Origin: Agarophyton chilense
Lineage: Eukaryota; Rhodophyta; Florideophyceae; Gracilariales; Gracilariaceae
Direction: 5' to 3'
NCBI GenBank assembly: GCA_030374765.1
Contig: JARGXX010000092.1
Span: forward strand, 682,001 to 746,000
DNA length: 64,000 nucleotides
The position numbers and the translations under genes were made by a program. Shown here piece after piece: positions 17,580 to 58,926 of this stretch. The first letter of the stretch is position 1; every line of letters starts with the position of its first letter. Below the pieces are notes generated by a model, which had not been told where the DNA came from, made no database searches, and saw only the letters and a program-made list of their open reading frames with translations.

Positions 17580-17960
17580 TGGATATCTGCGAAATGAAAG
17601 ACTCTCGTTTTTCTGGACGAAAAAATGTTTACTTGGGACGGAGCAAATGGATATGCCTCTTATAAGCACTCTATTGGGTCAGAGAATCGAATGTGTTTTA
17701 ATCTTCTAAAAACTGAAGATGGAATATTAGTTTGGGGTTGTTTCATTAGTATTGAACGTCAGTGTTCTCGGAATGCTAGTTCAGTTGTCAAAAAAGGACG
17801 AATTGATATGACCGAAAAACCCGTGAATTTATCCAAATTTGGAGGTGTTAATTTCCGAAAATATTTTCATTCGTTCATTAGTGCTAGTTTGCATGGGAAG
17901 AAAAACTGACACATATCTGCAGTTTTTCTAGTTTTGATGGAGGTAAAACTAGCTTGAATC
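17580..17960 (+). pseudogene. Tc1/mariner-type transposase fragment
   Basis: Frame from about 17600 reads '..DEKMFTWDGANGY..' followed by 'LVWGCF', the DE-K-F-x-x-D-G and V-W-G signature of DDE_3 (Tc1/mariner) cores. Only about 100 residues remain; no N-terminal HTH or final D/E region is visible. A dead fragment just left of the 18-32 kb cluster. Confidence 0.55.
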
Positions 17961-18271
17961 TTTCTGTCGCCGCAGTTTAAAGGCAAAAGTAGAGAAGTGG
18001 TGCAGGAGCAGATTCAATCTTTGTGCGCTCTAGATTGACAGATTAGTACAAACAACCGGTCCCAAAATGGACTTCAAAATAGAAATTGAACATTTAGTAC
18101 CATCCATATCAATCGCAATAGAATCGCAGCCCGACCTGGCAGACCTCACGTGCCTTGCATTCTATATTATTCTCCACCGCCCTCCCTTGTCACGTGCCCT
18201 ATGTGCGCCATACTCTCTCTCCGTCTACGCCCCCTACCAACTTCTTTCCCACCACCTCTCCTCCACCCACC

Positions 18272-21200
18272 ATGCCTTCCTGCTGCTTCAACGGTTGCTC
18301 CTTCTTCGCCCGAGAAATCCCCGCTTTCCAGCAGCACCAGAGAAGGTGCCCTCATCGCCTCTCCGCCAACAAGCGCTTCCTCTCCCCTGGCGGAAATGAA
18401 CCCAACTTCCCCCCCCGCACAAAACGCCACAAGTCCACCTCACAACCCCCCCTCATCCTCCTCCCTCACATCGCCCTTCCGACAACGTCCCTCTCGCACA
18501 CCATGACTCCTATCTCCAAGACCAGCTCTCTCTCTCCCTCCACACCCAGGACGCCATCCACGTCGCCACTGCCCCTCTCGGTTCCCCCTCCTCTCTCGCT
18601 CTCTCCCCCCTCCCTCCTTCCACTCCCCCCCTCGACAACCCCCACCTGGAGAAAATGGTCCTCTACATCTTTTCCATCGCCTCCAAGCTTGGAAAACGAA
18701 AGGCTGACGAACTCATCACTCTCCTTAATGATCCCCACTTCTCCGAATGAACATTCCGGAACTCAGTCTCCTCCGCAAAGCAATGCCTCGAGCTCCAGGC
18801 AGACCTCTTCCACCAGAGAATCAGGTCCATTTGTTTCGCCCCCTCCACCATCTTCGATCCCCACAAACGCTTCTCCGCAACACTCTTCCAGAAAGACGCA
18901 ATCCATGTCCTCAAACAACAGCTCGCCCTCGCACACTTCAAGAACACCTTTTTCCATCCCATCTCCCAAACATCCGCCTCCGGCTCCCCCGCCTTTGCAC
19001 ACCCCATGGCAGCCACCCTCGGCTCAAAAGTAGTCCCCGCACTCAAGACCGCCATCATGCAGTCCACAAAAGATAACATCGTCTGGCATCTCCCTCACTC
19101 CACCGGTATCGACTCCTTCATCGGCCTCGTCCAAATCTACTCCGACAAGTCCTGTACCTCTCTCAAATCTTCTTCCATCACCTCCTACCCCCTCCACATC
19201 ACCCTTCTCAACTTCTCCGACTCCTTTCGCCGCAAATGCATCTCCGACAATCTCACACTCCTCAGCTATCTTCCCACCTCCTTCACCCCAATCACTCCTT
19301 CTCCAGATGCAGATATCATTACCCATTTCTCCTCCATCCCCCGCCAAACAAAAATGGAACTCATACAGCAGACCATCTTCTCCCTCCTTCAACCTCTCTT
19401 CTCTTCCGCCCTCCCCGGTTTCCCCTTCCGCGATGCAGACGGCGTTCTTCGTCAATGCCACCCCATCATCGCCAGCTACTGCGCAGACATTCCCGAGGCA
19501 AAGGATATTCTCGCCATCTCCCACGGCACCCGCCCCCAGCACCCCTGCCACAGATGCTCTGTCCCTCGCTCACAACTCCACCAACACTCTCACGCCCATC
19601 CCCCTCGATCTCTTCCCCTCACCCTTGCAGCCCGCAACAAACACTTCTCCCTCCTCAAGGACTCCGAAGCAGCTCTCCTCGCCCGCAAGCCAAGAGTCTC
19701 GCGCAACTTCAAGGAACAAGCTCTCCAAGCACTCCACTCCCTCTCCCTCGCAAAATACCCCTCCCTCTTCGAGTCTTTCCCCTTTTCAACATCACCCCCC
19801 TCCTCACCCCATACAACATCTTCCCCTTCGAACCCCTCCACAACTTCCACCTCGGCGTTTCCAAACTCATCAAGCTCGCCGCCATCGAACGTCTCAGATC
19901 AGAACACCTCTTCACCACCATCAGCTCCACAAACTCCCGCCGTTCCTTCCACTCCGTCCGCACCTCCATCCTCAAGCACTCCAACTTCATCCTCACCGCC
20001 ATCGAAAATCATTCCCCAGCTACCGGCCTCCACATCGACTTCTCTACTTCCGAAAGCGGGCAGTCCCTCAACGGCTTCTTCACAACTGACGGCGTCCGCG
20101 GCATGCTAGAAGCAAAAGACTACCGCGCCCTCGACATGGTCTTTCCCTTCATCGGCGCCTTTTTCGACCGCTGCTGTGACGAAGCCAATTCCGCTCCCAT
20201 CACAACTGTCTTCTCCAAGTACACAGACCTCCTCCTCACCTCCATGTGCTACAACTCCGTCCCCGAATGGACCACTTCTCGTCTTGCCAAACTCGCCTCC
20301 CAAATCCATTCCTTCAAGCACAGAGCTGTCGATGTTCTCGGTCCATACCATACCTCCAACCTTGGCACCCTCAAATTCCGCCTCCTCGATCACATCGTAG
20401 ACGACATTCGACGCTTTGGGGGTCTCCACTTCAACGATGCAGGCATCTTCGAACAAGCCCATACCCTCTTCAAAGCACATTACTCCCGAACCTCCAAGCG
20501 CAGACCCACCGCGCACAACGAAACCATCCGTGCCATCGAACGCTCCGATGCCGTCAACAATTGGATTTCTCTCTCCGCTGATCCTTCCGTCACCTCATCC
20601 TCCCATGCCCCTCCTCCTCCCTTCCAAGCCCGCAAACCAGGTTTCGTCCGTGATGGCAAGCACACCTCCTTTTCCGATCTCATCACCGCTCACAAATTCC
20701 TTCGAGCAAACCCCCACTCAACAATCTCTTCCCTTCAGGACCTCTTCTCCCCAGACACTATCGCCATCATCTCACAGATTGGAACCCTCGCACTCCCCTC
20801 CTTCGTCACACTCACACTCGAAACACTAGCTCTCAACCAGGACTCCCCCACTCTCCGCCAAACCCGTCTCACATTCGTCAATTCCGCATACGTCGTCGGC
20901 GGCTTCACCCCAACCCTAGACGACTACATCGCCGATCGAAACGAGCTCGCCGTCAAAGATCCCCCTCTCCCACTCATTCAACGTATCTTCGCTGCTCCCT
21001 CCTTCGGTCCCTCTAAAACCCCAAAGTTCTCCCACATCCTCGTTGCCGGTTCCAGCTTCTCCAACCCCACTCCCACCGCCTGGGTCTGCAAGCTCAACTC
21101 TCTTCTTCGCTTCACCACCCCTTCTTCCCCTTCCACTCATAACGAGTTCGCCTTCGTTCAGTTCCTCGAACTCGTTCCACCCCAGGATCAAGTCGATGTC

Positions 21201-21491
21201 TCTCTCAATTGCATCTGCCTCCGATGGGCAACAGACGACGAACAAAACCACACCGCCCACCCCCTTCCTATCTCAAACACTTCCAACTCCGACAACGTCT
21301 CCCCCTGGTTCGGCCTCGTACCATCCTCTTCCATTCTCGGCCCCGTTCATGTACTTCGCCAAAACTACCCCGCACCCCCTTTCACCCCTCGATTGCACTG
21401 GCGCTTCCATCGATTTTACCTCAACAGATTCTACCGAGACCCAACTGCCAAGCCCTACTTCTCCAACACCACCACTGGGTGGCACCCATAA
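18272..21491 (+). pseudogene. large zinc-finger transposase, Plavaka/CACTA- or KDZ-like (broken)
   Basis: N-terminus from ATG 18272 carries a C2H2-like finger (CCFNGCSFF...QQHQRRC). The frame then changes within a C8 run near 18410, continues to an in-frame TGA at 18748-18750 (a Trp codon changed by one base would fit), and runs on to about 19785, where one missing base moves it to the frame ending at 21491. The middle has 'HPCHRCSVPRSQL', the Cys-cluster seen before the catalytic core of Plavaka/KDZ-type transposases, then 'FEPLHNFHLGVSKLI' and an 'EQAHTLFKAHYSRTSKRR' segment. Overall about 1,050 residues. Exact superfamily unresolved. The codon pattern and conserved motifs span all breaks, so it decayed recently or the breaks are sequencing errors or unrecognised introns. 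Confidence 0.65.
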
Positions 21492-21516
21492 TAATACCTC
21501 CCAAGGCACATGATCC

Positions 21517-21522
21517 AATAAA
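21517..21522 (+). terminator. AATAAA polyadenylation signal after transposase
   Basis: AATAAA 26 bp past the transposase stop codon, in the 110-bp gap before the convergent ORF2. It fits a eukaryotic poly(A) signal. Confidence 0.45.
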
Positions 21523-21600
21523 ATAGTCACCGCTGCTTTTCTTCCATAGCCGACCCCCATCTTGCTCCACCTCCTTACCCCCTTATCCCCCCGTACCTTA

Positions 21601-24255
21601 TCACTCTCCCACTCCTTGCCTACTCCCCAACGCTAAGCGCTTGAACCGTGGTTCTTCTGGTCCACATGACGCTATATAGCAATCTAACACCGCTCCAAGT
21701 CTTCTCGTGAGATTCTCCATGAAAAACTCCTCCCTTATCGCCAGATAGATTTTCTCTCTCGACGGTATCCATAGCCCAACCGTCGCGATTCTCTCCTTAT
21801 TCCCACTCACATCTCTACGATTCCCTCCACAGAATCCATCATTCTCAAACTCCTCAGCATACTCATCCTTCACCATGTTCCAGGCAACCCTCAATATGTC
21901 CTCAACAGCCAGTGGCAGAAACCTCCCAAACAGCGTCGAGAACAAAAGTTGCCTTTGGCCTCCCCGCCCAACGTCTCTATCCATCGTGGTCACCACACAT
22001 CCAATCCATGCATCAAGTCGCGCAAGATGCATCACCGTCCCATCCACATACTGCCTTTCTCCATTTCTGTGACTCTCTACCGCGTAGCCCATAAACTCCT
22101 CCAACACTTTCAACGACACCTGATTTCGAAAATACATATCTGCCTCACCAAAGTCCTCCAAGTTCTCAGACACCTTCGATCCAGAATAAGTAATATCTTC
22201 AATCGCACTCGTTCTCCACGCACACAGCTTACCTCTCCCATCCTCCCCCGACCCCATCAACTTCTCCTGCGCCTCCTCAATCTGCTTCTTCAACTCCGCC
22301 CAAAGCTCCGTCCCTTCAGTCACCTTAGCTCGTTTCGCGATCAAATCATATCCAAGCATGGAAAACAGCTTATCACGCGCTGCTCGCTTCCGCACCCCAA
22401 CCACATCGCTCAATGTCTGCTTCATCCTCTGTCTCAAGCACCTATCCGCACTTACATTTTCCACGCACTCCTCTCTCCTCCCCGCTTCCCTTATCGACTC
22501 CCATTTCTCTCCCATTAACTCAGTCTCTACCACGTGCTTCAACAACAAATGGCTCCCGCCCTCTGTCGACGGCGTATACGGTCTCATCTCATATGCAACC
22601 TCAATTGGACATCTCGGAACCATTTCCTTCTCTCCCACCACAAACATACTTTCCTCCCTACTCTCCCCAACCGCCTCACTTCTATTCTTCCAGCTTCGAC
22701 CCACATTCTCGGTGTCGAAGCAAAGTTCCGATGCCTCCAGTTTTGCACAATGAAGAATCCTATCATACACACGACGTGCAAATCCATAAAAGCATTCCTG
22801 CACTCCAATGTCATACTTTCGTCGCCGCGTCACGCCTCCCTCCCCCCTCCCTTCCCCAGCGATTCTACTTTTCAACGCCTCCCTCAAACTCTCAATCAGC
22901 ACATTCTGCTGCTTCATTTCCTCCCTCGCCCGATCCAGCTCCGTTTGGGTCATTTTCAAACTCACCATCACACTGTAGCTGTCTTCCTTCATACGTCCCA
23001 TTTGTCCCTTCAACACATTCATCTTCTCAATTAGCATCGACCGCGGCAACAAACCTATGTCATCATCATTTGCTTCATCTTCCACTATACGGACGGCGTT
23101 CTCCACGACATTTAAATTCGCATTCTCCCCGTTATCATTATTCCTTGTGAATACAATGTTTCTCCTTACTCGCATACCTTCCGGCGTCCTTCGCCTTGCG
23201 TTCACCTCAAACCCTTCAACTCCCAAACCCACCCCTCTCCTCGGTGGCAAACGCTCGACATCTTCTCCCTGATGAGAAAGAACTGCTGCTCTTCCATCGC
23301 CTTCCTCCCCTGAACCACGTGTTCTCCCTCCAGCAAACCCCCTTCTCCCCCCCTCACTCACATGCACTTCTCTGCTTTCCCTTTCGTCTATCGCTCTTCT
23401 TCCTGTAACTCGAACACTCCCCATTCTTTCCCTTGCACGCTCTCTCCTTTCTTCCACGTAATCCAAGTTCGCCCCCTCCCATCTTTCCGCCTGTTCCCCC
23501 GCGGTAACTCCAACACTCTCTCCTTCTGTTCTCTCTCGAACGACTCTTGCGCCCGCGATTAGACCACTACTGGGTCCACCTATTCTACCCTCCCCACCAC
23601 GGCTACTCTCTATTCTCCCTTTCTGTATCTCATCATCACCGTCCTCTTTCCTCATACCCGTAAACGATGCCTCTGCTTCTTCAACGCCTCTGAGGCGGGA
23701 TCCACGTTCTCCGATCATTCTCTCTCCCTCCTTACGCCCCTTCGTCCTCTCATTCGGAATCTCTTCACCTCCTTCAGGTGCAGAGCATGGATTTACCGGC
23801 TCCACATCAGCTGAAGACGTGAGTACAGCACTTAGAGTCCGCTCGGATGCATCCCCTCTCCTTGTCCTCCCTGGAGCTCTGCTCGCCCTCCCCCGCAATC
23901 CACTTCTAGGTACACGCGTGCGGTTGCTTCGCACGCCATCCCGTTTTCCATCGCCGCTCCGCACCATCTCTCCCGTAGGCGACGTGATTTGCTCCGTACG
24001 CGACGTGATTTGCTCCGCACTCTCCTCCGTCACCGTCTCCTTTGCGCGAACAGCCTTTCCTTTGCCCCCACTCGCCTCTCCTTCCCCACCATCTTGCCTT
24101 GATCTACCTCTCAGGCGCACGCCTCCCTTCTCTCCACTCGCGCCCTGGAGCCTACGCCCCTTGTCCCTTCCGCCCTCCGCATCCCCTCCATGCCGCCGTG
24201 ATTTTGTACCGCGCCCGCTAGTGTTCTCGCTTCTCGATTTGCGCTTCGGAGCCAT
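21601..24255 (-). CDS. large coiled-coil protein, unknown (cluster ORF2)
   Basis: About 884 residues from the ATG at 24255 (MAPKRKSR...); an upstream non-Kozak extension to 24360 is less likely, since the next gene also starts MAP. The first ~400 residues are Arg/Gly/Glu-rich and disordered with basic clusters like nuclear signals, and include a short duplicated 'TEQITS' unit. A coiled coil follows ('MNVLKGQMGRMKED' to 'LIESLREALKSR'), then an ordered ~380-residue C-terminal domain rich in Glu/Arg helices that I do not recognise. It converges on the transposase and lies 325 bp downstream of the methyltransferase-SET gene on the same strand. A nucleic-acid-binding or accessory transposition protein is possible but unproven. 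Confidence 0.7.
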   Translation of the reverse strand: MAPKRKSRSENTSGRGTKSRRHGGDAEGGRDKGRRLQGASGEKGGVRLRGRSRQDGGEGEASGGKGKAVRAKETVTEESAEQITSRTEQITSPTGEMVRSGDGKRDGVRSNRTRVPRSGLRGRASRAPGRTRRGDASERTLSAVLTSSADVEPVNPCSAPEGGEEIPNERTKGRKEGERMIGERGSRLRGVEEAEASFTGMRKEDGDDEIQKGRIESSRGGEGRIGGPSSGLIAGARVVRERTEGESVGVTAGEQAERWEGANLDYVEERRERARERMGSVRVTGRRAIDERESREVHVSEGGRRGFAGGRTRGSGEEGDGRAAVLSHQGEDVERLPPRRGVGLGVEGFEVNARRRTPEGMRVRRNIVFTRNNDNGENANLNVVENAVRIVEDEANDDDIGLLPRSMLIEKMNVLKGQMGRMKEDSYSVMVSLKMTQTELDRAREEMKQQNVLIESLREALKSRIAGEGRGEGGVTRRRKYDIGVQECFYGFARRVYDRILHCAKLEASELCFDTENVGRSWKNRSEAVGESREESMFVVGEKEMVPRCPIEVAYEMRPYTPSTEGGSHLLLKHVVETELMGEKWESIREAGRREECVENVSADRCLRQRMKQTLSDVVGVRKRAARDKLFSMLGYDLIAKRAKVTEGTELWAELKKQIEEAQEKLMGSGEDGRGKLCAWRTSAIEDITYSGSKVSENLEDFGEADMYFRNQVSLKVLEEFMGYAVESHRNGERQYVDGTVMHLARLDAWIGCVVTTMDRDVGRGGQRQLLFSTLFGRFLPLAVEDILRVAWNMVKDEYAEEFENDGFCGGNRRDVSGNKERIATVGLWIPSREKIYLAIREEFFMENLTRRLGAVLDCYIASCGPEEPRFKRLALGSRQGVGE

Positions 24256-24579
24256 GGTTGAAGAGAGAGAGAGCGATCGTGGTATGGTCTTCCACGCGTT
24301 GCAATGCGATGGATGGGAGAGAAGCTTCGAAACATTCTGCTTCCAAAAATATACCTCCACCCTTTTCGTGTTCTCAGAAAACCCCCAAACTTTTCAGATA
24401 TTTTAAATATGCGCTCGAACGCACCAGATATTGGGAAAGTATTCTCCTTCGGTGTACATGACTTTCCTTTAGCATATGTACTACGTCACGCTTTGACGTT
24501 ATATGTAGCGACAAACATAGTAAAAGCCCACAATATCTGGTACACTACAATGAAGTAAAGTAACAAAAGCGATGCACTT
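24256..24579. promoter_or_regulatory. intergenic with inverted repeats, likely ORF2 promoter
   Basis: Between two minus-strand genes. The 10-bp arms CCAGATATTG (24424-24433) and CAATATCTGG (24531-24540) enclose a second small palindrome, ACGTCA...TGACGT, at about 24483-24500 that resembles a CRE half-site pair. It could be a promoter or a small foldback insertion. Confidence 0.35.
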
Positions 24580-27500
24580 TTAATCGATTACTATGACTGG
24601 CGTGTTATTCATACTCCAGATATACTCTGTCCCATAATCCGCGAACAGCTCCTCTCCTATTTCTATATCTCGAATTGCTTGCACAGAAAGCAATCTATAG
24701 TCTCTCAACTGAAATGGGGTCCGCCCCGTCCCCGGAGTTCTGATGACCCGAACATTTGCAGTTCGGCGTCTCATTAACCCGTCTTCAACCGCATCCCTGT
24801 CCCTATCCCCTTCCACATACTTGGGGTCGTTAATTGTTCCCCCCAAGCAAAATGGAGCAGGGACAATCCACACCGGAATAAGAGACACCCCACTAATTCT
24901 TCCTGGTAGCTTGTGAAACACTTCCCCTCGGACGCTTATCTCCATCGCGTACTGCCGAAAACGATCAGCAGTCGCTTTCAATAGCCCCCCTCCGTATGCC
25001 TTATGAACTTCCTTCCGCTTTGAAAGATTATGGTACACCAAAGTCCCGTAAAAGTAACAAACAGTCTCACCTTGTATCACCCGGCGTGTTGTGTACACAC
25101 CAACTCCAGCATTCGGGTGCCTTATCGTCGAATTTGCAATCCGACAACCACATACTGTCGCCTCCACTGCCAGAATAGCATTCCAATCCAACAGTGACAT
25201 CTTTCCTTGAAAACTTCTTGGCCACTCATACAGCGCCTGCCGTCGCCCAATCTCCGGTATATTCTTATCCTGCCACATGGAGGAGAGAAAATCCACGATA
25301 TGGGGTGGAAACATCTGATGCTCGGGAAATCCGGTAGGTGTTTTCCAGGACTTCGAACGCTTTATGACGACGTCCGGAAACAAGCATGTCACTCGAGTCA
25401 CAGCGTTCCGAACATCTTGCGTTATATGAATGTCCGTCTCGTTGTTCCGCATGCATGACGCAAATTTCACTGTAGCGGCGTGCTTCGCATGAGCAAAGCA
25501 CTGCGGATCTGGCTCACACCCTAGAAACTGACGGTGCTTTTCCAGTTCCATGCATGCCATGGCCGTTGAAAATGTTCCGGCGAAGAGGTCCACCACTATG
25601 TCTCCCGGCTGAGAAAACCTGCTGATGAGCTCCTTCAGCAAAGCGCGTGACTTCTGTTCCGCCCGCACTTTCTGATACGTAACTGCTCCTTTGGCATTCT
25701 TCCTTCTCCATAGAAGTGTTTCACCATTCGACATGGGAGGCACTTGGTCAATCACGCTATGGTAACCCGGATATCGCGATGGTACATAGCTGAAGTTCTC
25801 ATAGTTCACCATGCCATGTTGTTCGGCGTAGGACAACCCGCTGCGAACTCCATGAATGGCGTACTCTGTTCCGGGAAACAGGGAGCACGAACTACGTCCG
25901 GGATTACGCATCGGATTGCCTTGAGAGCGAATGAAGTGCAGCTGGACCTTGTCCACGACAAACGACCTGCTCTTCTGTCCATTCTCATCCTTTGCACCAA
26001 TTCGACCCAACACTTCTTTCCATTCGTTCACCTGCTCAATCGCGCAGAATATAACGAAATGCCCTCCCGGACGCAGAAGTTTAGAGATGAGCTTCGCCGT
26101 CTTCACCATGTCTTGCCGGTTAAGAACGTCGTACCAGCTGTTTTTCCTGTTCTTCTTCGCACGTATATTATACGGCGGGTCCGTGAGAACCAACTGCACT
26201 TTCCCTATCGGAGAGACCCCATTGCTGCGCAATGTCTCGTCAATCTCCACCAGGTTCTCGAAAGTACAATTGTACATTCGACAGTGCTTATCCATCTCCG
26301 ACTCGCACTTTTGGAGAGACATTATATCATCCAGAGAGGTAAGGTCGTGAGGCGGCAGAATATCCACCGACTCAGATTCGACCGACCTTGGTCCAGCTGT
26401 GGAAGAATGCTGACCAACACCCATGTTCTCTTCCTCATTCCCGGTCCCACCCTCCACTCCCTCTCCACCCTCCACCGCCGGAGCCTCCGAATCTTTCTCA
26501 GGGGGTACAACTTCTATCTCGTCTTCTTCCATAACCATAGTAGGTTCCGCCTTTGTCGCAGCCACCACTTCCACCTCCACACTCCCTCGCAGCTTTAGTG
26601 GCGATATGTATTCCGAGATGGTAGAGATAAGAGAGTTCGAGAAGCAGTCGAATCTCTCCGCAAACACTCTAGGCAAAGTGTATGTAAACGGTTTTAGAAC
26701 GTCCCATCTTTCCGGAGCTGATATAGAGTAAAGCTGCTCATTCACCACCACTTTGTGCAGGTCAGCGAGAAACTCTTTGGCCAACATACGAAGTGGAGTG
26801 TCAACGTACTCCGGCAGGTTCCACGCCCATGGGACGACATCCTCCTCCAATAAAGTACGGTTTCTACCAGGAAGGAGTCGTTGGGCCATGTCCTTGTGAG
26901 AGAACCCATCCCTTCTGTTTCCGATTGCCTGGAACTGCATATCAGAATATCGTAGATGGATAAAGGGCAAAACCATGAATTCCACGCCAGGGAATCCCAA
27001 ATACTGGGCGAAGCTGTCCCACGCGTTATTGACGAGCTGCACACCAAAGCCCACACGCTGAGCTACTGGTTTGTCATAAATCGCCACCTTCGAAAATGGC
27101 GTATCGTAGGTTCTGTCCCGCTTTCTTCGCTTACGGGAGACTCTTCTCTTCTCCATAGAGACCGACTGAATACAAATGAGGAACAGCAACCTCTGGAACA
27201 TTGTCGGGAAGTCGGTCGCGAATGGAGCCCGGCTTTTGCTCGCCTTCTTTCGGGTTGTATCCAGACCTTTGAAGAACTCTGTCAAAGTGACATTCTTCGG
27301 GATGCCCTTGAACTCCACCGCCTCGTACGCGTTCCAAAAGTCCCTCACGCGCCTATCTGGGTCCCCATCCCTTATATCCAGCAACCTCGCCGAGAAATAA
27401 TTCTGACAGTTCGAGCCCCTCATTCCTACAACTCGGAGCTCATCTTCTGTGTAATTGGTGTGGTCGGGACCTAGGAGAGTATAAAAAAACTTCGCGGTCT

Positions 27501-27711
27501 CCGGTAGGATGTGGCGATTGGCAATTGCGAAATCGATGAATGCAGTGTGCCCCACTTTTCGCGGCTCATCTTCCTCCCGCCTCGTTAATGCGTAACGATC
27601 ACGCAAATCCAGACACGCCCTGATAACTTCATCCCCCGTACCAAACAGTTTACCCATTTCGAAGGTGTCTGCCGCAGGCGATGAAGAAGTTCTCGTGGGT
27701 TCTGGAGCCAT
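24580..27711 (-). CDS. DNA amino-methyltransferase / SET domain fusion
   Basis: 1,043 residues, ATG at 27711 (MAPEPTRTSS). Residues 1-400: unrecognised helical domain. About 400-470: acidic linker. Residues 511-514 DPPY (catalytic motif IV of N4/N6 amino-methyltransferases), a target-recognition-like insert, then DLFAGT at 708-713 (SAM-binding motif); this order is that of beta-class bacterial and phage enzymes, which methylate adenine-N6 or cytosine-N4. Residues ~866-1035: SET domain ('GVGVYTTRRVIQGETV', ending 'GEELFADYGTEY', Tyr in DYG at 1025-1027); the usual NHSCxPN motif is altered to a 'GGTINDP' and 'ANVRV' version. SET domains methylate protein lysines. It is divergent from the ParB-like gene across the palindrome array. 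A single protein able to mark both DNA and chromatin protein is the simplest reading. Confidence 0.85.
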   Translation of the reverse strand: MAPEPTRTSSSPAADTFEMGKLFGTGDEVIRACLDLRDRYALTRREEDEPRKVGHTAFIDFAIANRHILPETAKFFYTLLGPDHTNYTEDELRVVGMRGSNCQNYFSARLLDIRDGDPDRRVRDFWNAYEAVEFKGIPKNVTLTEFFKGLDTTRKKASKSRAPFATDFPTMFQRLLFLICIQSVSMEKRRVSRKRRKRDRTYDTPFSKVAIYDKPVAQRVGFGVQLVNNAWDSFAQYLGFPGVEFMVLPFIHLRYSDMQFQAIGNRRDGFSHKDMAQRLLPGRNRTLLEEDVVPWAWNLPEYVDTPLRMLAKEFLADLHKVVVNEQLYSISAPERWDVLKPFTYTLPRVFAERFDCFSNSLISTISEYISPLKLRGSVEVEVVAATKAEPTMVMEEDEIEVVPPEKDSEAPAVEGGEGVEGGTGNEEENMGVGQHSSTAGPRSVESESVDILPPHDLTSLDDIMSLQKCESEMDKHCRMYNCTFENLVEIDETLRSNGVSPIGKVQLVLTDPPYNIRAKKNRKNSWYDVLNRQDMVKTAKLISKLLRPGGHFVIFCAIEQVNEWKEVLGRIGAKDENGQKSRSFVVDKVQLHFIRSQGNPMRNPGRSSCSLFPGTEYAIHGVRSGLSYAEQHGMVNYENFSYVPSRYPGYHSVIDQVPPMSNGETLLWRRKNAKGAVTYQKVRAEQKSRALLKELISRFSQPGDIVVDLFAGTFSTAMACMELEKHRQFLGCEPDPQCFAHAKHAATVKFASCMRNNETDIHITQDVRNAVTRVTCLFPDVVIKRSKSWKTPTGFPEHQMFPPHIVDFLSSMWQDKNIPEIGRRQALYEWPRSFQGKMSLLDWNAILAVEATVCGCRIANSTIRHPNAGVGVYTTRRVIQGETVCYFYGTLVYHNLSKRKEVHKAYGGGLLKATADRFRQYAMEISVRGEVFHKLPGRISGVSLIPVWIVPAPFCLGGTINDPKYVEGDRDRDAVEDGLMRRRTANVRVIRTPGTGRTPFQLRDYRLLSVQAIRDIEIGEELFADYGTEYIWSMNNTPVIVID

Positions 27712-27879
27712 TTATGTACATGTTCAAACAACCTCACGGGCGGTCGTCACGAGAGCCTGAGTGAAAGAGAGCAGCGGGTGCGGGTGGGTGCGGGTGGGTA
27801 CGGAAAGATTGTGAGTACGGTTGAGGAGCGCGCACGGAAGAACGGTTGTTGCGGAACGACTTCGCAGCTATCCTGGTTG

Positions 27880-28630
27880 CATTCTGTCGGCCATCAGAGG
27901 TGCGCTCCGACTTCATCGGGGGTCCCGATGAAGTCCCCGCGCACCTATGTCGGCCGACATAATACATATAATTTTGTAATTATTGGAACGCTCAGGTGTA
28001 CACGGTGCACTCTGTCGGCCAACATCTCAGAAACGCATCATGCGTGATGTTATGGCGTATTTGTCGGCCGACAGGGGTGCCCTGCGACTTCATCGGTCCA
28101 CCGATGAAGTCGCAGCACACTCCTGGCGGCCTACAAATGGCCCGAATGGTGTCCCTACAACATGTTGGTGAATTGTCGGCCGACAGGGGTGTGCTGCGAC
28201 TTCATCGGTGGACCGATGAAGTCGCAGGGCACCCCTTTCGGCCGACAAATACGCCATAACATCACGCATGATGCGTTTCTGAGATGTTGGTCGACGGTCG
28301 GCCGACAGAGGTGCGCTCCGACTTCATCGGGGGTCCCGATGAAGTCCCCGCGCACCTCTGTCGGCCGACAGAGTGCGCCGTGTACACCTGAGCGTTCCAA
28401 AAATTACAAAATTATATGTATTATGTCGGCCGACAGAGGTGCGAGGGGACTTCATCGGGACCCCCGATGAAGTCGGAGCGCACCTCTGTCGGCCGACAGA
28501 GTGCACGGTGTACACCTGAGCGTTCCAAAAATTACAAAATTATATGTATTATGTCGGCCAACAGAGGTGCGCGGGGACTTCATCGGGTCCCCCGATGAAG
28601 TCGGAGCGCACCTCTGTCGGCCGTCAGGAT
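27880..28630. repeat. array of nested palindromes between divergent genes
   Basis: Six hairpin units of about 65-75 bp (near 27895, 28062, 28177, 28297, 28424 and 28553). Each is an inverted repeat with arms built from GACTTCATCGG / CCGATGAAGTC, outer arms GAGGTGCGC / GCGCACCTC, and TGTCGGCCGACA ends. Spacers also recur and alternate in orientation: one ~50-bp spacer (with CGTTCCAAAAATTAC) occurs three times, a second (CGCATCATGCGTGATG type) twice, inverted. Units at 28062 and 28177 are reverse complements of each other around a unique centre at 28136-28176. Open frames here are repeat artefacts. Confidence 0.9.
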
Positions 28631-28719
28631 ATTTCTAATTTTTTAATTTTATTTTCTTGTATCGCCTACCAAGCCAATAGGCGTGTTTGTGATGGAAAGA
28701 GACAAGGAGTTTCTTGAGT

Positions 28720-28771
28720 TTGAAACTAAGCGGACGTAGCTCAGGTTGAAACTAAGCGGACGTAGTTCAGG
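28720..28771 (+). repeat. 26-bp tandem duplication
   Basis: Two adjacent copies of a 26-bp unit (TTGAAACTAAGCGGACGTAG plus six bases) differing at one base, about 150 bp upstream of the ParB-like gene start. Could be a duplicated protein-binding site in its promoter. Confidence 0.75.
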
Positions 28772-28916
28772 CTGATTGCAACGAACTGCTCTCGGGAGTG
28801 TTCCGGATAGTCGCCACCAAAGGAGCTCGATCTAATACGTCTTAGTCTGTATACCATAAAAGGCTCAAAGCGCTCTGCGACCATTTGCAACCTCGACCGA
28901 CTACGATCCGATTCAA

Positions 28917-31451
28917 ATGATGACTCGAGGCAAAGCGAAAGCGAGGGGTACTCCGCGGGGTACTCCACGCGCCACTCCGCGAAAAGCTACATCGGGAAAC
29001 AATCTGGCTGGTGGGGATAGGGTGGCGTTGTTCCTGGCGGATGGGACAGGGAAGAAGAAGGGTACTATGGTTGGCACTGCGGAGTTGAGAGGTGTTGGGG
29101 GCAGTGGAGCGGCCGGGAAGGCGCTTTGCAGAGCGATGCATGGCCATTCGTTGCGCGAGTCTGCGAAGCCGGGAGAGGACTTGGTGGCCATCTGGAGGAC
29201 TGAAATTAAGGAGGGGATCAACTCCAAGTATCCGTACTCCTTCAAGGGAGCAGAGGAGCCGCCGGAGTTGCTGAAGGATATGGTGTCGGCAGGTATATAC
29301 GCATGGGATACCTCGATGATGACACGCGTCTCCTCTGTGCTGACTCCAGGGCCTCCTCGGCCGGAGACTCCCAAAAGCGCGACCCCCTCGAAGGAGTCTG
29401 CTACGCCTTTGAGGGGGAAGAGGGCACAGCCAACAACAGTGCCGCCGGCCATGAAGCAACCCGTCAAGCCGAAAAAGAGGGTGACGATAGTGGATGATTC
29501 TGATGAAGATGTTGTGGAGGTGGGGTTAGCGGTGAATGTACGCGGGGATTCGCACACCGGTTCCGAGTTGGAGTTGTTCGATGACGGCGATGCCGTTCCT
29601 TCGCAGGAAGTGGATAGAACTCTCGTGGAAAAGAAGATCTCTGCTTCAGACTATGACCAGTGCCGCTTGATTGTGGACATAGATGACATACAAATCCCCG
29701 AGAAGACTGTCAGAAGTGTGAATGCGGAACACAAGGCGGCGACGATGGCAAAGTGCAAAACGTTTGGCTGGCTTGCGTCGGCAGGGTCGATTGCTGTTGC
29801 CATCGTCGGGGGAATGGAATTAGATTTCAGTGAAATTGTTCACAATGGGAGGGTAGTGGTGCCTGTCATACTCATTGACGGTCATCACCGCGTCTTGGTT
29901 CTGCGAGATCTGAAGAATGATCCCTCTGAAGGGAGAAAGTGGTTGGAAATTGTGCGGTCTCTTGATGTCGTTCTTTGGAGACGAAAGGACCGGAAGCCTT
30001 TATCGCTGAACGAAGTGCTCGGTCTTGGTAATGTACTCAATGAAATGAGTTCAAATGTGTTGAAGATGAGTTTCGCCGACAAGGTTCATTCGACAGTGTC
30101 CTTCATTTGCAACTTGATTGACGATAAGAGAACCAAGTTGGCTGACCTTACTCCGACACGGATAGATGGGGCGCTGAAGACGAGCGAAGCTATAGGAATC
30201 TACAGCTTGCGCCACTTGAATCGCTATGCGACTCTTGGGTTGAAATTCGTCAGGAGCGAAGGTCTCCTGGAGTTCTTTGAGAACGTATGCAAGGAGGGTC
30301 CAGTGCTAACGCTTGCGCATGTGTCGAGTGACTTGTTGTTAGGACTCGAAGACGAAATATTCCGTTTCGCAATCCGTTGTTTGCAGCTACATGTGAGGGT
30401 GAGGATGGGTTCTACTGGGAATATGGGACGTTTCCAGGAGACGCGAAAGCAGTTCTTCCAATGCGCCATAGGAATGTTCCAACTATGCGAAAGGGCGGGA
30501 AAGGAGAAGGGTCTGACGGCGAGGAAGGTTCTAGACAGCACAATTGTGATGGGAAAGAACGAGGTGTCTTTAAGGGAGTACCTTTGCATGCAAACGGCGA
30601 AGATGGAGCTCAGTGGTCCGAAGCAGTTGTGGCCGGGGTTGGTATCGAAGAGGATGAAAATCGCACAAAGGCGGATTGAAGGTGGTCTGAAAGTGAGTCT
30701 GGCGTCCCCAAGTGCGGAGAAGGATGTGGTAGAGGTGCCACCTTCTGCAAATGTTCCTTCGTCTAGTGCTGGGGAGTCTATACCCCACCAGGAAACCGTG
30801 GTTCGCAGACGCATCACACGAACTAGAAAAGGTACTGAGCGCGGGCTGGATGCTGCGGGTGAGAGGGTGATGGAACCTAGACAGAGAAAGGGGAAGAGAA
30901 AGGCTGTGGTCATTAGTGATGATGAACGCGAGTATGAACAGCCTTTAAAGCGGAAAAGGAAGAGGAGAAAGACGGTGGGCACATCTGCGCCTCAAATACC
31001 GGCTGACGTGGTGGATGTGTTCAAGAAGATGAGCAGGAAAGAGCTGAAGCGCTTCTTGAAGGAACATGTACTCAATGTTTTCTCATCGAGGGGGCAGGGT
31101 GCATTTGTAGGGGACGAAGAGGAGGAAGGTGTGCAAATGCGTGGCTTCGAAGACAATAATCCGGAGGGTGTTCCGAAGGGGCTGAAGAGGGCGGGACCGT
31201 ATGCGGGGGGGTCGGGTATGTCGTGGGTGTACTTGGTGAATGCACTTCCGAGCGAGTGGCCGGCGGGTGAAAATGGAGTGAAGCATCAGCACCTCTGGAT
31301 GCAGATGATTTACCTACGGAACAAGCACAGGGCGGAGTGCTTGAGGGTAGAAGACTTGAAAAGTGTGCACCATGCGGTTTATTGGCGTGCTGCTCATAAC
31401 AGGCACAAGGAACTGGGTTCCACGAACGACGAAGGACCACCCTGTGAATGA
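28917..31451 (+). CDS. ParB/sulfiredoxin-fold domain protein
   Basis: 844 residues from the ATG at 28917. The basic Gly/Thr/Arg N-terminus looks disordered. Residues ~240-340 match the ParB/Srx N-terminal fold: 'VDIDDIQIPE', a mid helix, then 'ILIDGHHRVLVLRDL' with DGHHR at 321-325, the counterpart of the nucleotide-binding box of ParB. The following ~300 residues are helical and unrecognised. The C-terminus has nuclear-signal-like basic clusters ('RKRRKT'). ParB-fold proteins bind nucleotide and often load on palindromic DNA sites; some are nucleases or partners of DNA-modifying systems in phages. The gene starts 290 bp from the palindrome array and overlaps the dioxygenase gene downstream. 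Role here is inferred. Confidence 0.75.
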   Translation: MMTRGKAKARGTPRGTPRATPRKATSGNNLAGGDRVALFLADGTGKKKGTMVGTAELRGVGGSGAAGKALCRAMHGHSLRESAKPGEDLVAIWRTEIKEGINSKYPYSFKGAEEPPELLKDMVSAGIYAWDTSMMTRVSSVLTPGPPRPETPKSATPSKESATPLRGKRAQPTTVPPAMKQPVKPKKRVTIVDDSDEDVVEVGLAVNVRGDSHTGSELELFDDGDAVPSQEVDRTLVEKKISASDYDQCRLIVDIDDIQIPEKTVRSVNAEHKAATMAKCKTFGWLASAGSIAVAIVGGMELDFSEIVHNGRVVVPVILIDGHHRVLVLRDLKNDPSEGRKWLEIVRSLDVVLWRRKDRKPLSLNEVLGLGNVLNEMSSNVLKMSFADKVHSTVSFICNLIDDKRTKLADLTPTRIDGALKTSEAIGIYSLRHLNRYATLGLKFVRSEGLLEFFENVCKEGPVLTLAHVSSDLLLGLEDEIFRFAIRCLQLHVRVRMGSTGNMGRFQETRKQFFQCAIGMFQLCERAGKEKGLTARKVLDSTIVMGKNEVSLREYLCMQTAKMELSGPKQLWPGLVSKRMKIAQRRIEGGLKVSLASPSAEKDVVEVPPSANVPSSSAGESIPHQETVVRRRITRTRKGTERGLDAAGERVMEPRQRKGKRKAVVISDDEREYEQPLKRKRKRRKTVGTSAPQIPADVVDVFKKMSRKELKRFLKEHVLNVFSSRGQGAFVGDEEEEGVQMRGFEDNNPEGVPKGLKRAGPYAGGSGMSWVYLVNALPSEWPAGENGVKHQHLWMQMIYLRNKHRAECLRVEDLKSVHHAVYWRAAHNRHKELGSTNDEGPPCE

Positions 31452-32553
31452 AGAGCAGGCGATATGGATGGAAGCAATGGAGAGGGATGACTTGGCCCGC
31501 GAGTACTTCGCGACTAAGAGAAGTGAGCTGATGGAGAAAGGATTTTGTGTGCTGGAAGAGTTTGCCACGGACGAGGGGATTGCGGATGAGGCGAAGAAGA
31601 GGGGGGTAAACTTCGATGGGGATGTGACTGGGACTTTGCTAGAGTTCTTCCAGACGGATTTCTTGAACCAGCCGGACTTGACGATTGAAGGGAATAGAAA
31701 GAAATGGGACCCTATAATCAACGCTGGTGAGGAGAGAGACGCTGGAGATAGAATGAAGGGAGTTGGGCGGTACATTACGACGAAAGTGGGGATTGTGGAT
31801 TCTGTGGAGGGGGACGAGAACAACGTTTTAATGGTGAGGAAAAGGGCATTGTTGGATGCGAGGTTTGGACAGATTGCGGCCGCTCTTCGGTTGTGCAACA
31901 ACAGGTCTGGGAAGAAGAGGATGTATGCCCCTGAAACAGGGGGGCGAGTGCTGAGTACGGCGGAGGGCTGTCCAAGGCAGGTGTTACATACGGACTTTCG
32001 AGGACTGACCGATGCCGAGAAGAACGTCGGAGAGGTTCCAGGGTTCTTCATGATGGCGTCGGGAGCGAGTTCGTTTATGCTTTGGGTTTGTGAGAGGTCA
32101 CATAACATGTACGTGCCCGACGACAGGAGCTTGAAGCGGCTGTCTCGGACGATGGTAGTGAGGAAGTTCAGGATTCTGCCGTACTCCATTTTTATTGGAA
32201 GAGGAGATGTGTTTCATGCTGGAGCTGGATACGAGGATGCATTGGTTAAGGAAGTTTGCATGAGGTATCACATGTACTTGGTACTGGATGGGTACAAGCT
32301 ACCGGACGCAGTGCATAGGCAACCAGCATTTCGGCCTAAGTTCGAAGAGGATGATTCCAACAAGGGTGATGATGAAGACGTCCAGGTAGATGAGGATGAG
32401 GAGTTGGATGAAGATTATAAAATGGAAGTTGTTGAAAGTGGAGAAGAGGAGTATGAAGAAGAGGATGATGAACCTGGGATGGGTCTCAACTCGGCTAACA
32501 CAGATGGAGACTATGAAGACGGCGGTATGATAATGGATGACAACGGCGACTAG
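31372..32553 (+). CDS. 2-oxoglutarate/Fe(II)-dependent dioxygenase-like protein
   Basis: 393 residues from the ATG at 31372; a later ATG near 31463-31470 would avoid the 80-nt overlap with the ParB-like gene and fits equally. The double-stranded beta-helix motifs are clear: 'VLHTDF' (His206, Asp208), 'GDVFHAGAGY' (His282) and 'RYHMYL' (Arg298), i.e. HxD...H plus the Arg that holds 2-oxoglutarate. The C-terminal ~80 residues are a long acidic tail. Family members hydroxylate proteins, small molecules or DNA bases (TET/JBP). The cluster context with a DNA methyltransferase favours a nucleic-acid or chromatin substrate, but that is inference. Confidence 0.7.
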   Translation: MRFIGVLLITGTRNWVPRTTKDHPVNEEQAIWMEAMERDDLAREYFATKRSELMEKGFCVLEEFATDEGIADEAKKRGVNFDGDVTGTLLEFFQTDFLNQPDLTIEGNRKKWDPIINAGEERDAGDRMKGVGRYITTKVGIVDSVEGDENNVLMVRKRALLDARFGQIAAALRLCNNRSGKKRMYAPETGGRVLSTAEGCPRQVLHTDFRGLTDAEKNVGEVPGFFMMASGASSFMLWVCERSHNMYVPDDRSLKRLSRTMVVRKFRILPYSIFIGRGDVFHAGAGYEDALVKEVCMRYHMYLVLDGYKLPDAVHRQPAFRPKFEEDDSNKGDDEDVQVDEDEELDEDYKMEVVESGEEEYEEEDDEPGMGLNSANTDGDYEDGGMIMDDNGD

Positions 32554-32576
32554 ATAGTATCTGTTACCTATTGAAC

Positions 32577-32582
32577 AATAAA
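32577..32582 (+). terminator. AATAAA polyadenylation signal after dioxygenase
   Basis: AATAAA 24 bp past the dioxygenase stop codon, in the 81-bp gap before the convergent membrane-protein gene. Confidence 0.5.
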
Positions 32583-32634
32583 GAGTACAATTTGAGGTAA
32601 TATGTTGAGTAGTCCCCTTTTCTTGTAATAGTGA

Positions 32635-33474
32635 TCAGTCGTCTTTCAGTAGCAACTCCTGAACAACTGGATTGAAACGCGTGAGAGTAGCACTTGCTTT
32701 CACTTTTTCATAGTGAATGACAACTGTCGAAGATATCAAGATTACGAAATTTACTGTGTTACCAAGCAGTATAGGAACACCAGGTCCCTCAATGCGAGAG
32801 GTGGAGAAGGCGGTTGAAGAGAGTGCAGCGAAAGTGCATGCCAACAGCCTCATACCGAGTAGTCGGAAGGTTACATCCGGACTGGATATGAATAAAGCCT
32901 GTTGAAAAGAGTGGGAGAGGGCGCCAAGCACGAGGTACATAAAAGAGGTTCTCCGTGGTTCCGGGGTCATTGTGAACTTTGTGTTAAGATAGGACTCTGG
33001 AAAGAATGATATAGAAACAAGCTGGAGAAGATATGCCAAAGCGCCAACTGCGGCCCCTCCTGTGGAGAAGGCGATACAATTTGTCTTCACTTCTGATGAA
33101 AGGGTACCGCTGACTGGAATGAAGCGGTGAACGAGGAAAAGTATGGCGTTGAGGGGGATGAGTAGAGTAAGGAGTAGAGCCCCGAATTCCAGAAAGGCTC
33201 GTTTCTTCCAGGTATATCGCTGGTTTGGATTGAACGGCGTAGTTTGTAGAGACCCGTATAACGCGTTTATACATTGTACGCCTCCTTCGATTATGAGAAT
33301 GTGTAGCAGGCTTTGGATAGAACATCTCAATAGCGTTATGAGAATAAACCGAAGGAGAGAGTTGAATCTGAATGGAAGCGTATATTGCAGAGCTGGGTCT
33401 ATAACTCCGAAGAGTGTAGCTAGTGTGATTGTGAACGTTAAGGTCGGTGTGAAGAGTGTTTGCTAACTGAACAT
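32635..33474 (-). CDS. polytopic membrane protein, unknown
   Basis: The open frame from 33462 to 32635 encodes at least six hydrophobic segments (e.g. 'FGALLLTLLIPLNAILFLV', 'GNTVNFVILISSTVVI'). No ATG lies in this frame before the upstream stop. A 48-nt intron from 33467 to 33420 (GTTAGC...CACTAG, containing the branch-like CCTTAAC) would join an ATG at 33474 in frame with the rest through a 7-nt first exon. That intron is a prediction; a larger spliced gene including the ORF at 33476-34102 is the alternative. I do not recognise a family. Convergent with the dioxygenase gene. Confidence 0.55.
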
Positions 33475-33475
33475 C

Positions 33476-34102
33476 TTAGTAAAGGCATTCCGGTTTGCTA
33501 GTCTTCCCTGTACGCTGCACATAGGTAACGATATGATACCGCTCTTTGAACAGTTGTTTCAGAGTATCTTGCTGCTGTAGGGAGTTGCGAGTGGGGAGCC
33601 TCCTGGTGGTCGTACAAATGTCACGAATCTCGTCCATGAGCTCGTTGGTGATATGATTCTGGAACCCTCTGACTTCGACCACATTCTGGGTGGTTAGAAG
33701 TTTGATTTGAAGGACTTCGTCGATGGTGATAACCGTTCGATGTGGAAGAATATCCACAGCTGCTGAGCATTGGACAGAAGAACCAGGGGGTAGGGAAAGA
33801 CGTGCTTCGTAGCGCTGCATGCTTGAGAAGGAGAGGAGAGTGTCGTGTAGAAAGGTATTTGTGAGGGACTGGATACAGTATGTTGAGGGCAATGAAGTAG
33901 GGTGGTCATCGATGGATATATATATGTAGTGATCAAAGTAGTTGTTAGGTTGTTGCCGTATCTCTGTTGCGGAGTTTGAATAATTGTTATGAATGAAAAC
34001 CTTTGATAGACTGTAGGAGCGGTTATTGGGTACAGATTTAATTGCAAAGTTGGAAGATTTATGAAGAGTGGTTGTAGTGATGATTTGTGATGTACGAAGC
34101 AA
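33476..34102 (-). CDS. hypothetical protein, possible upstream exon
   Basis: The frame is open for 208 codons but begins with TTG; its first ATG is at 33820. The middle looks protein-like ('VQCSAAVDILPHRTVITIDE', 'NELMDEIRDICTTTRR') with no known domain. Its stop is one base before the ATG proposed for the membrane protein, which suggests that the two may be parts of one spliced gene rather than two genes. Confidence 0.35.
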   Translation of the reverse strand: MLRTSQIITTTTLHKSSNFAIKSVPNNRSYSLSKVFIHNNYSNSATEIRQQPNNYFDHYIYISIDDHPTSLPSTYCIQSLTNTFLHDTLLSFSSMQRYEARLSLPPGSSVQCSAAVDILPHRTVITIDEVLQIKLLTTQNVVEVRGFQNHITNELMDEIRDICTTTRRLPTRNSLQQQDTLKQLFKERYHIVTYVQRTGKTSKPECLY

Positions 34103-34235
34103 TTCTTAATATCGTTTCATATATTCTGACGTGGTGTCGTGCGGATAGCAGTCTTTATCGAGGCAGCGAAGGAGATGGACATATGCTTTAGAAAGGAGGA
34201 CTTGTTTTTATTGGAAGGGGTATATGAATGAAGTA

Positions 34236-35060
34236 CTACCCATTGAGGAGGACGTTCAAGAAGTTCGTATGGAAAGGGGCGGGGTCACGGTTTCCAATGG
34301 ATTTTTGGGCGTTAGAAACGTTGTAGAAGTAGACGTTCCGGAACTCAAAGTCTGAGAACGAGGTGGGGAACTGTGTAAGTGTTTTTCCGTGGGCCAGAAG
34401 TTTTTGGAGTGTTTCTGTTGTATTGTAGGCGATTCCTGTTTCGGATGTGACGATGGCGAGGAGCTCTTTCATTATGGTTGAAACGACTGTGCGGTGTTGT
34501 ACTGCAACTTCGTGCATTGTGATAAAGCCATAAGAGGAGCCGACGAGATTAAAAGCTGATATCCATACGAGTTTTTCGTAGTAAGCTTTAGAGAAGGAGG
34601 GCTGGTTGACGATATGACAAGTGAGGCCTGCGGTACTGAGGCGATTGGCGAGTGCGGGAGCCCATTTGCCGGTGGCAGTTGTGAGACCATGGGGACTGAG
34701 GAGGGTGACACCGTCCTCGGGGGGTGCGTTAAGGGAGGGGACGGCGAGGAAGAGAACGGCTTTGGTGCAGTTTTGGAGCCCATAGGTTGAAAGAAGAGGG
34801 AGAATGTTTCCGTTCTGAAGGAAGACCAGATCCTCTCTGCGGGAGGAAGGGCAGAATTGAATGACGTCTTCGAGTGAATGATTTCTGCCGCAGAAGAAAA
34901 TGGGGCCGTCGGGGATGTATTGCGCGGAGATGAATTCTTGAGTTGAGAGAAAAGCATCTTGTGGGGTGCCGTTGTTGCGAAGCAAAGTGCCGATTCGGCC
35001 TCTGCGGACAATAACGGCTGCGTCGGAGGTGCCAGGGATGGCAGTGAGAGAGTTGGTCAT
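34236..35060 (-). CDS. ketopantoate reductase (ApbA/PanE)-like protein
   Basis: 274 residues from the ATG at 35060. 'EDLVFLQNGNILPLL' matches the 'QNG' region of 2-dehydropantoate 2-reductases, and 'YEKLVWISAFNLVGSSYG' the conserved 'KLLWNxxFNxxxALTG' helix of the C-terminal domain with its catalytic-site Lys. The N-terminus is short and the usual GxGxxG dinucleotide loop is not obvious ('IPGTSDAAVIVRRGRIG' stands in its place), so cofactor use may differ or the first exon may be missing. Members reduce ketopantoate with NADPH in pantothenate synthesis; this divergent form could have another substrate. Confidence 0.55.
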   Translation of the reverse strand: MTNSLTAIPGTSDAAVIVRRGRIGTLLRNNGTPQDAFLSTQEFISAQYIPDGPIFFCGRNHSLEDVIQFCPSSRREDLVFLQNGNILPLLSTYGLQNCTKAVLFLAVPSLNAPPEDGVTLLSPHGLTTATGKWAPALANRLSTAGLTCHIVNQPSFSKAYYEKLVWISAFNLVGSSYGFITMHEVAVQHRTVVSTIMKELLAIVTSETGIAYNTTETLQKLLAHGKTLTQFPTSFSDFEFRNVYFYNVSNAQKSIGNRDPAPFHTNFLNVLLNG

Positions 35061-35572
35061 GTTGATTGCGAAAGGTGTTTGGAGTGCGGTGTGCTTGGAA
35101 TTGAAGAAGTGGTGGGGGTGGCGAGTGTGGAGATGTGATTAAATAGAGAAGGAGTATGGTTGTGGAGGAATGGGTGTTAGGGGTTTTTGGGAAGGAGGTT
35201 AGATTTATGATATTGAATGGTGTTTATCGTGTTAAAAGTGTAGGAGTGTGTGTTGTTATGGAAGTCATAACGGGAAAGAGGGCTTATGAGTAATCGGCGG
35301 TTTGTGTTACGAATGAGTGTGATTTATTATAAATGAGAAGGCTATGAAATTGGGAGTAGTGAGGGAGCGCTGAACATGATAGAAGGTGTAGGAATATGGA
35401 TGGGAGTGTGTGAGTGAGCAATGAGTGGGGTGAAGGGCATCCGGAGCGTAGATGCAGGGGTGTACGAGGGTACTGAAATTGGGCGAGCGCGCGCGAAAAG
35501 CGGGTCAAAAAAAGGAGATAAAAGGCCGGAGGTGGGCCAGAGGATTTTCGAGGGGGGGTGCTGTGTGGGAGG

Positions 35573-57928: not shown

Positions 57929-57996
57929 TGGGAGAGAAGTATATATAGTGACCGGAAAGCGAGACACCCGCGGCTCGGAATGTTCTTCCTCGTCTT

Positions 57997-58924: not shown

Positions 58925-58926
58925 AG

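Follow-up and report, generated by a model that had tools for sequence, protein, structure and literature searches.

Does a compact cluster of genes in the red alga Agarophyton chilense belong to one mobile element, and might that element control its own chromatin? The question is raised by a 64,000-nucleotide (nt) stretch of contig JARGXX010000092.1 (positions 682,001 to 746,000), which we call the window. From its letters alone, the original prediction had described a 14.5-kb cluster at 18150..32640 that joined a transposase with DNA- and chromatin-modifying enzymes, and had read it as one selfish element. We found that positions 17757-36357 are one complete Plavaka-type DNA transposon, a mobile cut-and-paste element. 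The predicted parts lie at about the places given; the extent did not hold, since the real unit reaches about 0.4 kb further to the left and 3.7 kb further to the right.

Boundaries and copies of the element

We aligned the window with seven other copies from the host genome (80 Mb, 135 contigs; copies are named after their contigs, such as C117 or C10). Similarity starts at 17757 and stops at about 36357, and the flanking DNA beyond these ends is unlike from copy to copy. The element and its ends are:

17757..36357, no strand: complete Plavaka-type transposon, 18,601 bp, both ends common to five other copies (18.0-18.8 kb)
17755..17756, no strand: left target-site duplicate, AA
17757..17779, plus strand: left terminal inverted repeat, 23 bp, CGTCAGTGTTCTCGGAATGCTAG
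36335..36357, minus strand: right terminal inverted repeat, 23 bp, CGTCTGTGTTCTCGGAATG... as read on the minus strand
36358..36359, no strand: right target-site duplicate, AA

The termini are CGTC..GACG. Matching 2-bp target-site duplications (TSDs) were present in all six copies with both ends read: AA in the window, TA in C117, C10 and C2, CA in C105 and TG in C70. This count leaves out C12, which is without a left end, and C86, which was read at its left end only. Across the genome, the terminal inverted repeat (TIR) pattern gave 316 matches with at most one mismatch, compared to 0 for the reversed pattern. Among 100 TIR sites listed there were 32 correctly facing pairs, 30 of which span 3.0-18.9 kb. 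The other two span 26.8 and 39.7 kb, perhaps as a result of insertions. The family spread recently, the eight copies differing from each other by 0.45-1.92% over 16.1-18.7 kb.

Gene order is conserved along with the ends. At 41 of the 63 SET loci of this young family, the transposase, ParB and 2-oxoglutarate (2OG) dioxygenase-like matches described below all lie on the expected side and strand. The remaining 22 loci have the transposase alone (10), ParB and 2OG without transposase (3), transposase and ParB (2) or none of them (7). Conversely, the methyltransferase-SET gene was at the expected place for 53 of 123 Plavaka matches (the best 123 of 235 candidates). Shared ends, TSDs, many copies and conserved order support the claim of one selfish element; the copies in the host genome are not single genes without common ends. 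Three of the eight copies read (C117, C10 and C86) have uninterrupted open reading frames (ORFs) for the transposase, methyltransferase-SET and ParB-2OG proteins. Of the genome-search matches, counted over the best-scoring candidates only, those that cover the full query and are free of internal stops number 13 of 44 (methyltransferase-SET), 9 of 44 (transposase) and 7 of 39 (ParB-2OG).

Several further observations concern the copies. Elements with the same ends, in which a palindrome lies instead some 777 bp away from the right one, occur at C3:203756-222462, C25:1014693-1017734, C3:97010-101522 and C2:1514922-1520793; they are likely to be either internally deleted forms or another subfamily. 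In the C12 copy (about 353998-356207), the left end is replaced by sequence like window positions 56717-58924. A retroelement insertion is possible there, because a left-type TIR lies at C12:334864. GC skew is extreme inside the element, at -0.56 over the transposase (18001-24000) and +0.52 near the right end (34001-36000), and most of the window is without such values.

A Plavaka transposase and a probable second core protein

The main genes and the array between them are:

18272..21513, plus strand: zinc-finger Plavaka transposase, frameshifted in the window copy (PF18759 matched on the C117 ORF)
21601..24255, minus strand: 884-amino-acid (aa) protein, basic and coiled-coil-like by eye, convergent to the transposase
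24580..27711, minus strand: DNA amino-methyltransferase with C-terminal SET, one ORF of 1043 aa, matched by Pfam
27878..28650, no strand: palindrome array between the divergent genes, made of inverted repeats of about 74 bp
28917..32553, plus strand: single gene with ParB/Srx-like and 2OG-Fe(II)-like motifs, split in the window copy

The zinc-finger transposase had been predicted correctly. Its window copy carries indels of -1, -1 and -20 nt, and it is one intact 1087-aa ORF in C117 and C10. PF18759 was the sole Pfam match on the C117 ORF (E=1.2e-22; 81 bits, with the cut-off at 26.3). By eye we noted the motifs YSDKS at 290, ADIPE at 405, CHRC at 426, HLLDH at 704 and GIFEQ at 725, whose D and E are candidate catalytic residues. 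The PF18759 domain and the TIRs with a 2-bp TSD agree with Plavaka in the CMCT clade, where TSDs are 2-3 bp, and on these sequence features we classify the element as an autonomous-type, CACTA-like Plavaka. A link to KDZ transposons, raised in the original prediction, was rejected, because PF18759 is the only Pfam match and the TSD is 2 bp, not 8 bp as in Zisupton. Fungal PlavakaA and PlavakaB are described with the termini TGT..ACA or CATCA..TGATG (PMC12730594). Because those of the element differ, we file it as a Plavaka outside these two groups.

The 884-residue protein was found as an ORF where it had been expected. Among the eight copies read, just two (the window and, at 877 aa, C2) keep it as a single long ORF. 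A search with its C-terminal 300 aa gave 132 genome matches (the best 131 of 289 candidates scored), including diverged relatives at 52 loci with 38-76% identity. A Plavaka match lies within 20 kb at 16 of the 52. At 15 loci PF18759 is on the convergent strand 2.5-3.3 kb away, 14 of them falling at 2.48-2.67 kb. Because of this convergent arrangement at 15 of 52 diverged loci, the 884-aa protein is probably a second core Plavaka gene. CACTA elements encode an accessory protein, with which it may be comparable in role.

A methyltransferase fused to SET

The 1043-aa ORF carries both domains of the predicted fusion, N6_N4_Mtase (PF01555, E=3.4e-18) and SET (PF00856, E=8e-5; 23.4 bits for the whole protein and 27.7 bits for the piece, against a cut-off of 22.4). 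The two Pfam matches make a methyltransferase-SET fusion in one protein well supported, and for this enzyme the claim that a transposase is joined with a DNA- and chromatin-modifying enzyme was right. DPPY at 511 precedes FAGTF at 710, which is the permuted, beta-type order of N6_N4 methyltransferases, and its closest matches in the PDB, by sequence, are to adenine methylases, with a best E of 8.9e-10. DPPY favours N6-methyladenine (6mA). Because the methyltransferase carries this motif, its mark would more likely be 6mA than N4-methylcytosine (4mC). In the SET piece, read by eye, ELFADYG is present and ND takes the place of NHS, presumably the usual active-site motif. The methyltransferase-SET query matched 54 phage records, each at less than 60% identity. 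There was no relative at E<=1e-5 in the plasmid collection, none in a scan of a genome contig collection with the methyltransferase domain, and none in viral contig scans with three queries.

A protein with ParB-like and 2OG-like motifs beside a palindrome array

Separate ParB (28917-31451) and 2OG (31363-32553) genes, as originally predicted, were rejected: they are the halves of one gene, split by a deletion in the window. Compared with all seven other copies read, the window copy has lost 26 nt at 31426/31427, and a 1228-aa ORF runs uninterrupted in C117, C10 and C86. In its ParB/Srx-like part, DGHHR lies in a hydrophobic-strand context, and a PHROG endonuclease aligned over this region at a non-significant E=0.13. 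The 2OG-like part has HxD-x73-H-x15-R at residues 1041/1043/1117/1133, which we take to be the 2OG-Fe(II) dioxygenase motif. It falls in the segment that is best conserved (61% identity) between the element and a second, contig-end family described below. Both labels are given at the level of motifs, not profile matches. The 176-aa and 327-aa 2OG pieces had no Pfam match at E<=10, to TET/JBP or any other profile, and searches of the plasmid and phage collections gave no relative of ParB-2OG. Of 38 diverged ParB matches in the genome, 22 are followed on the same strand, no more than 5 kb downstream, by a 2OG match.

The palindrome array, also foreseen, occupies 0.8 kb of the 1.2-kb interval that separates the start codons of the divergent methyltransferase-SET and ParB-2OG genes. 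Its arms are about 35 nt (outer TGTCGGCCGACA, inner GACTTCATCGG). Over 37 palindromes in eight copies, the arms were 87.5% complementary across 36 positions; one inner position switches A/G symmetrically and several others vary on one side only. Exact palindrome cores number 1-7 per copy and, in the eight copies read, lie solely in the divergent intergenic region. The genome has 74 exact-core sites, against 0 for the control.

Diverged relatives inside and outside Plavaka loci

Diverged ParB and/or 2OG relatives accompany the 884-aa protein, with the expected side and strand, at ten of its 52 diverged loci (ParB at 8, 2OG at 6); density arithmetic puts the chance expectation at about 0.5. By these ten loci, the association of ParB/2OG with Plavaka is older than the young family.

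A genome search with PF01555 found a second methyltransferase group, in frames of 1130-1141 aa. This contig-end family has 32 SET copies on 28 contigs, 28 of the 32 with an identical score. Proteins are conserved between the two families: the long ORFs are kept (1130-1141 aa, and for ParB-2OG up to 1316 aa or slightly more) at 39-61% identity to the window (SET 45%, ParB 39%, 2OG 61%). Fifteen of the 32 SET copies face a ParB match within 16 kb. The two are between 5.0 and 11.5 kb apart, a spread that suggests a variable array in the intergenic region. Examples of these units, in one orientation relative to the contig ends, are:

C95:4128-14997
C95:2983754-2993078
C33:3586-12137
C96:3093-11643

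All 14 plus-strand SET copies lie 1.5-49 kb from the contig start, and among the 18 on the minus strand the three that could be placed are 14.4, 16.7 and 58.7 kb from the contig end. The family is perhaps subtelomeric. We favour this placement because randomly broken contigs would not be expected to give one orientation. No telomere repeats were seen by eye in the last 400 bases of C70, a contig without a contig-end unit. Among the matches listed, Plavaka came within 30 kb of only one of the 32 SET copies (C95:2973592, at a distance of 10 kb and with the side and strand that an element would show), and no diverged 884-protein match came within 30 kb of any. Exact palindrome cores were not at the contig-end units of C10, C25, C32, C33, C34 and C76 among the sites listed.

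As a separate observation, C21:639414-667010 holds six tandem ParB-like matches, 4.8-5.6 kb apart, beside methyltransferase-SET copies.

Substitution patterns among copies

Shared changes were too few for use, and we calculated omega from changes private to single copies. It was 1.00 for the transposase, 0.87 for the 884-aa protein, 0.84 for methyltransferase-SET, 0.85 for ParB-2OG and 1.52 for a reductase-like ORF in the right part of the element. The low polymorphism of the methyltransferase is an ascertainment effect, because similarity of the methyltransferase was the basis for choosing the eight copies. C-to-T changes occurred at 0.041 per CpG site and 0.032 elsewhere, a ratio of 1.28. 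The observed/expected CpG ratio was 0.86 for the element, 1.05 for a stretch of host genes and 0.90-0.91 for two stretches of retroelements.

Right part of the element and neighbouring repeats

Two ORFs of the right part are:

32635..33330, minus strand: ORF, membrane-like by eye, no Pfam match at E<=1
34236..35060, minus strand: reductase-like ORF, 274 aa, with a sub-threshold match to ApbA_C (ketopantoate-reductase C-terminal)

The ApbA_C match is below threshold (E=0.038; 14.8 bits, where the cut-off is 22.7); other copies of this ORF have a GxGxxG motif by eye, and its omega shows no constraint. The right-part ORFs (34236-35060; 32635-34102) are common to all copies that were read in this part, and are apparently passengers.

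Elsewhere in the window, the element has among its neighbours a GcpE gene and transposons of piggyBac-like, Gypsy and Copia type, as would suit a eukaryote with plastids. Around a Copia-type ORF there are three repeats of 0.92 kb with about 98% identity (47516-48435, 52965-53885 and 58010-58925), likely the long terminal repeats of nested or tandem elements.

Proposed mechanism and its alternatives

The ends, TSDs, copy number, gene order, Plavaka transposase, methyltransferase-SET fusion, 1228-aa frame and palindrome array are established. The reading that we prefer, and regard as evenly poised between right and wrong, is that of an autonomous-type Plavaka transposon carrying a self-directed modification module. 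The transposase and its convergent 884-aa partner would move the element. Methyltransferase-SET would write an amino-methyl mark on the DNA, and its SET part would methylate a histone lysine on the same chromatin. ParB-2OG would bind at or close to the palindromes that separate the divergent promoters, and would there oxidise a methyl mark. Oxidative removal of an amino-methyl mark is possible, since a fungal transposon-related TET is described as acting on 6mA as well as on 5-methylcytosine (5mC) (PMC12730594). Together, these predicted methyltransferase/SET, dioxygenase and palindrome-binding activities would keep the copies of the element, whether expressible or damped, in a state independent of host silencing, and the element would in this way control its own chromatin.

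Several results weigh against this reading. In each of the eight copies read, at least one of the four large ORFs is interrupted. The near-neutral private changes (omega 0.84-1.52) give no within-family sign of selection on the cargo, and the weak CpG signal does not indicate strong 5mC-type decay for the element to counter. At 42 of the 52 diverged 884-protein loci there is neither ParB nor 2OG, possibly through loss or limited scoring or because they were never present, and a methyltransferase or SET relative was found at only 1 of the 52. Since, among the matches listed, Plavaka is near only one of the 32 contig-end SET copies, the related gene pair may serve other uses. Finally, the predicted ParB and eraser labels held as far as their motifs are present, and failed to gain a Pfam match or a significant PHROG or PDB sequence match; single-sequence AlphaFold models were unusable (mean pLDDT of 34 for the 2OG part and 37 for the ParB part).

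In one alternative, methyltransferase-SET and ParB-2OG form a cassette of their own, selfish or useful to the host (at chromosome ends, for instance), that rides on Plavaka as a passenger with no role in transposition or in element chromatin. We consider this rather unlikely, if a serious contender. The diverged pair near contig ends, in one orientation and with so few PF18759 matches nearby, speaks for a passenger cassette, as do the 42 loci without ParB or 2OG, and the reductase-like ORF suggests that the element does take on passengers. On the other hand, the pair recurs with a Plavaka core gene at ten diverged loci, the complete set is kept at 41 of 63 young loci, and the sole Plavaka match near a contig-end unit has an element-like side and strand. 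The shortage of Plavaka at the other units is weak evidence, with the best 123 of 235 candidates scored.

The missing profile support would also be expected if the element carried a writer only, the 1228-aa protein being neither ParB nor dioxygenase and instead another DNA-binding or structural partner of the methyltransferase. We judge this improbable in view of the strand context of DGHHR, the position of HxD-x73-H-x15-R in the best conserved segment and the PHROG endonuclease alignment. A ParB-like domain in a prophage adenine methyltransferase, as described, also argues against it (PMC3089641).

The size and enzyme content of the element recall viral islands, and giant repeats flanked by Plavaka are described in Amoebidium (PMC11244446). 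An integrated virus or virus-like giant element was nevertheless rejected as very improbable, since the ORFs searched against Pfam include no capsid, packaging or polymerase family and one TIR pair, 2-bp TSDs and a Plavaka transposase explain the ends. Chance neighbours in a repeat-rich region, which the other transposons in the window might suggest, are scarcely credible and were rejected because ends, order and orientation are common to many copies.

Comparison with known systems

Iyer and colleagues reportedly linked TET/JBP to KDZ transposons and also dealt with eukaryotic adenine methylation. Retrotransposon-borne cytosine methyltransferases are another case of mobile elements with their own DNA methyltransferase; they resemble the element in this, although they are 5mC enzymes and sit on retrotransposons.

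Fungal Plavaka, KDZ, hAT, Harbinger, EnSpm and Helitron elements bearing TET/JBP have been described (Kojima 2025, PMC12730594). As that account presents them, the TET-bearing Plavaka elements share with ours the Plavaka transposase, a short TSD and an element-borne dioxygenase (here dioxygenase-like by motif). The element differs from them in its methyltransferase-SET writer, the ParB-like motif in its dioxygenase-like protein, the palindrome array, the CGTC..GACG termini and the lack of a Pfam Tet_JBP match. A dioxygenase-bearing Plavaka is, on that account, already known in fungi.

Bdelloid N4CMT, an amino-methyltransferase with a chromodomain, is described as coupled to histone marks and accompanied by expanded SETDB1 (PMC8885841). 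In both cases a bacterial-type N6/N4 methyltransferase is joined to eukaryotic chromatin machinery. N4CMT is presented there as a host gene acting on transposons, whereas ours is transposon-borne with SET in the same polypeptide. The Wolbachia prophage adenine methyltransferase, with its N-terminal ParB-like domain as outlined in PMC3089641, likewise links a ParB-like part to an adenine methyltransferase on a mobile element. It does so in a single protein, whereas here there are two divergent genes and the ParB-like part goes with a dioxygenase-like part. The giant repeats of Amoebidium are, like our element, large and multigene with a Plavaka transposase at the flank, and are highly methylated; as described in PMC11244446 they have tyrosine recombinases, and they are not known to carry methyltransferase-SET, which the element here does. 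An element with this enzyme set did not appear among the open-licence PMC papers listed.

Implications

Dioxygenase-carrying transposons are thought to escape silencing, which is hard to test where elements merely remove host marks. The element described here is compact and recently mobile, and seems to bring its own writer for DNA and histone, a candidate eraser and candidate docking sites. A further question, prompted by the contig-end relatives, is whether chromosome ends too are shaped by this cassette. A portable modification cassette, with methyltransferase-SET across from a ParB-dioxygenase and a variable repeat array in the middle, might occupy two niches of one genome, the Plavaka transposon and polar, homogenised chromosome-end copies that set subtelomeric chromatin, with the ParB-like protein of each lineage recognising that lineage's own array. 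We think this extension unlikely; if it were true, the ParB-like protein and the intergenic array would be a eukaryotic echo of ParB-parS. The element itself would lend itself naturally to asking whether mobile elements can set the chromatin they sit in, which here becomes a direct sequencing question.

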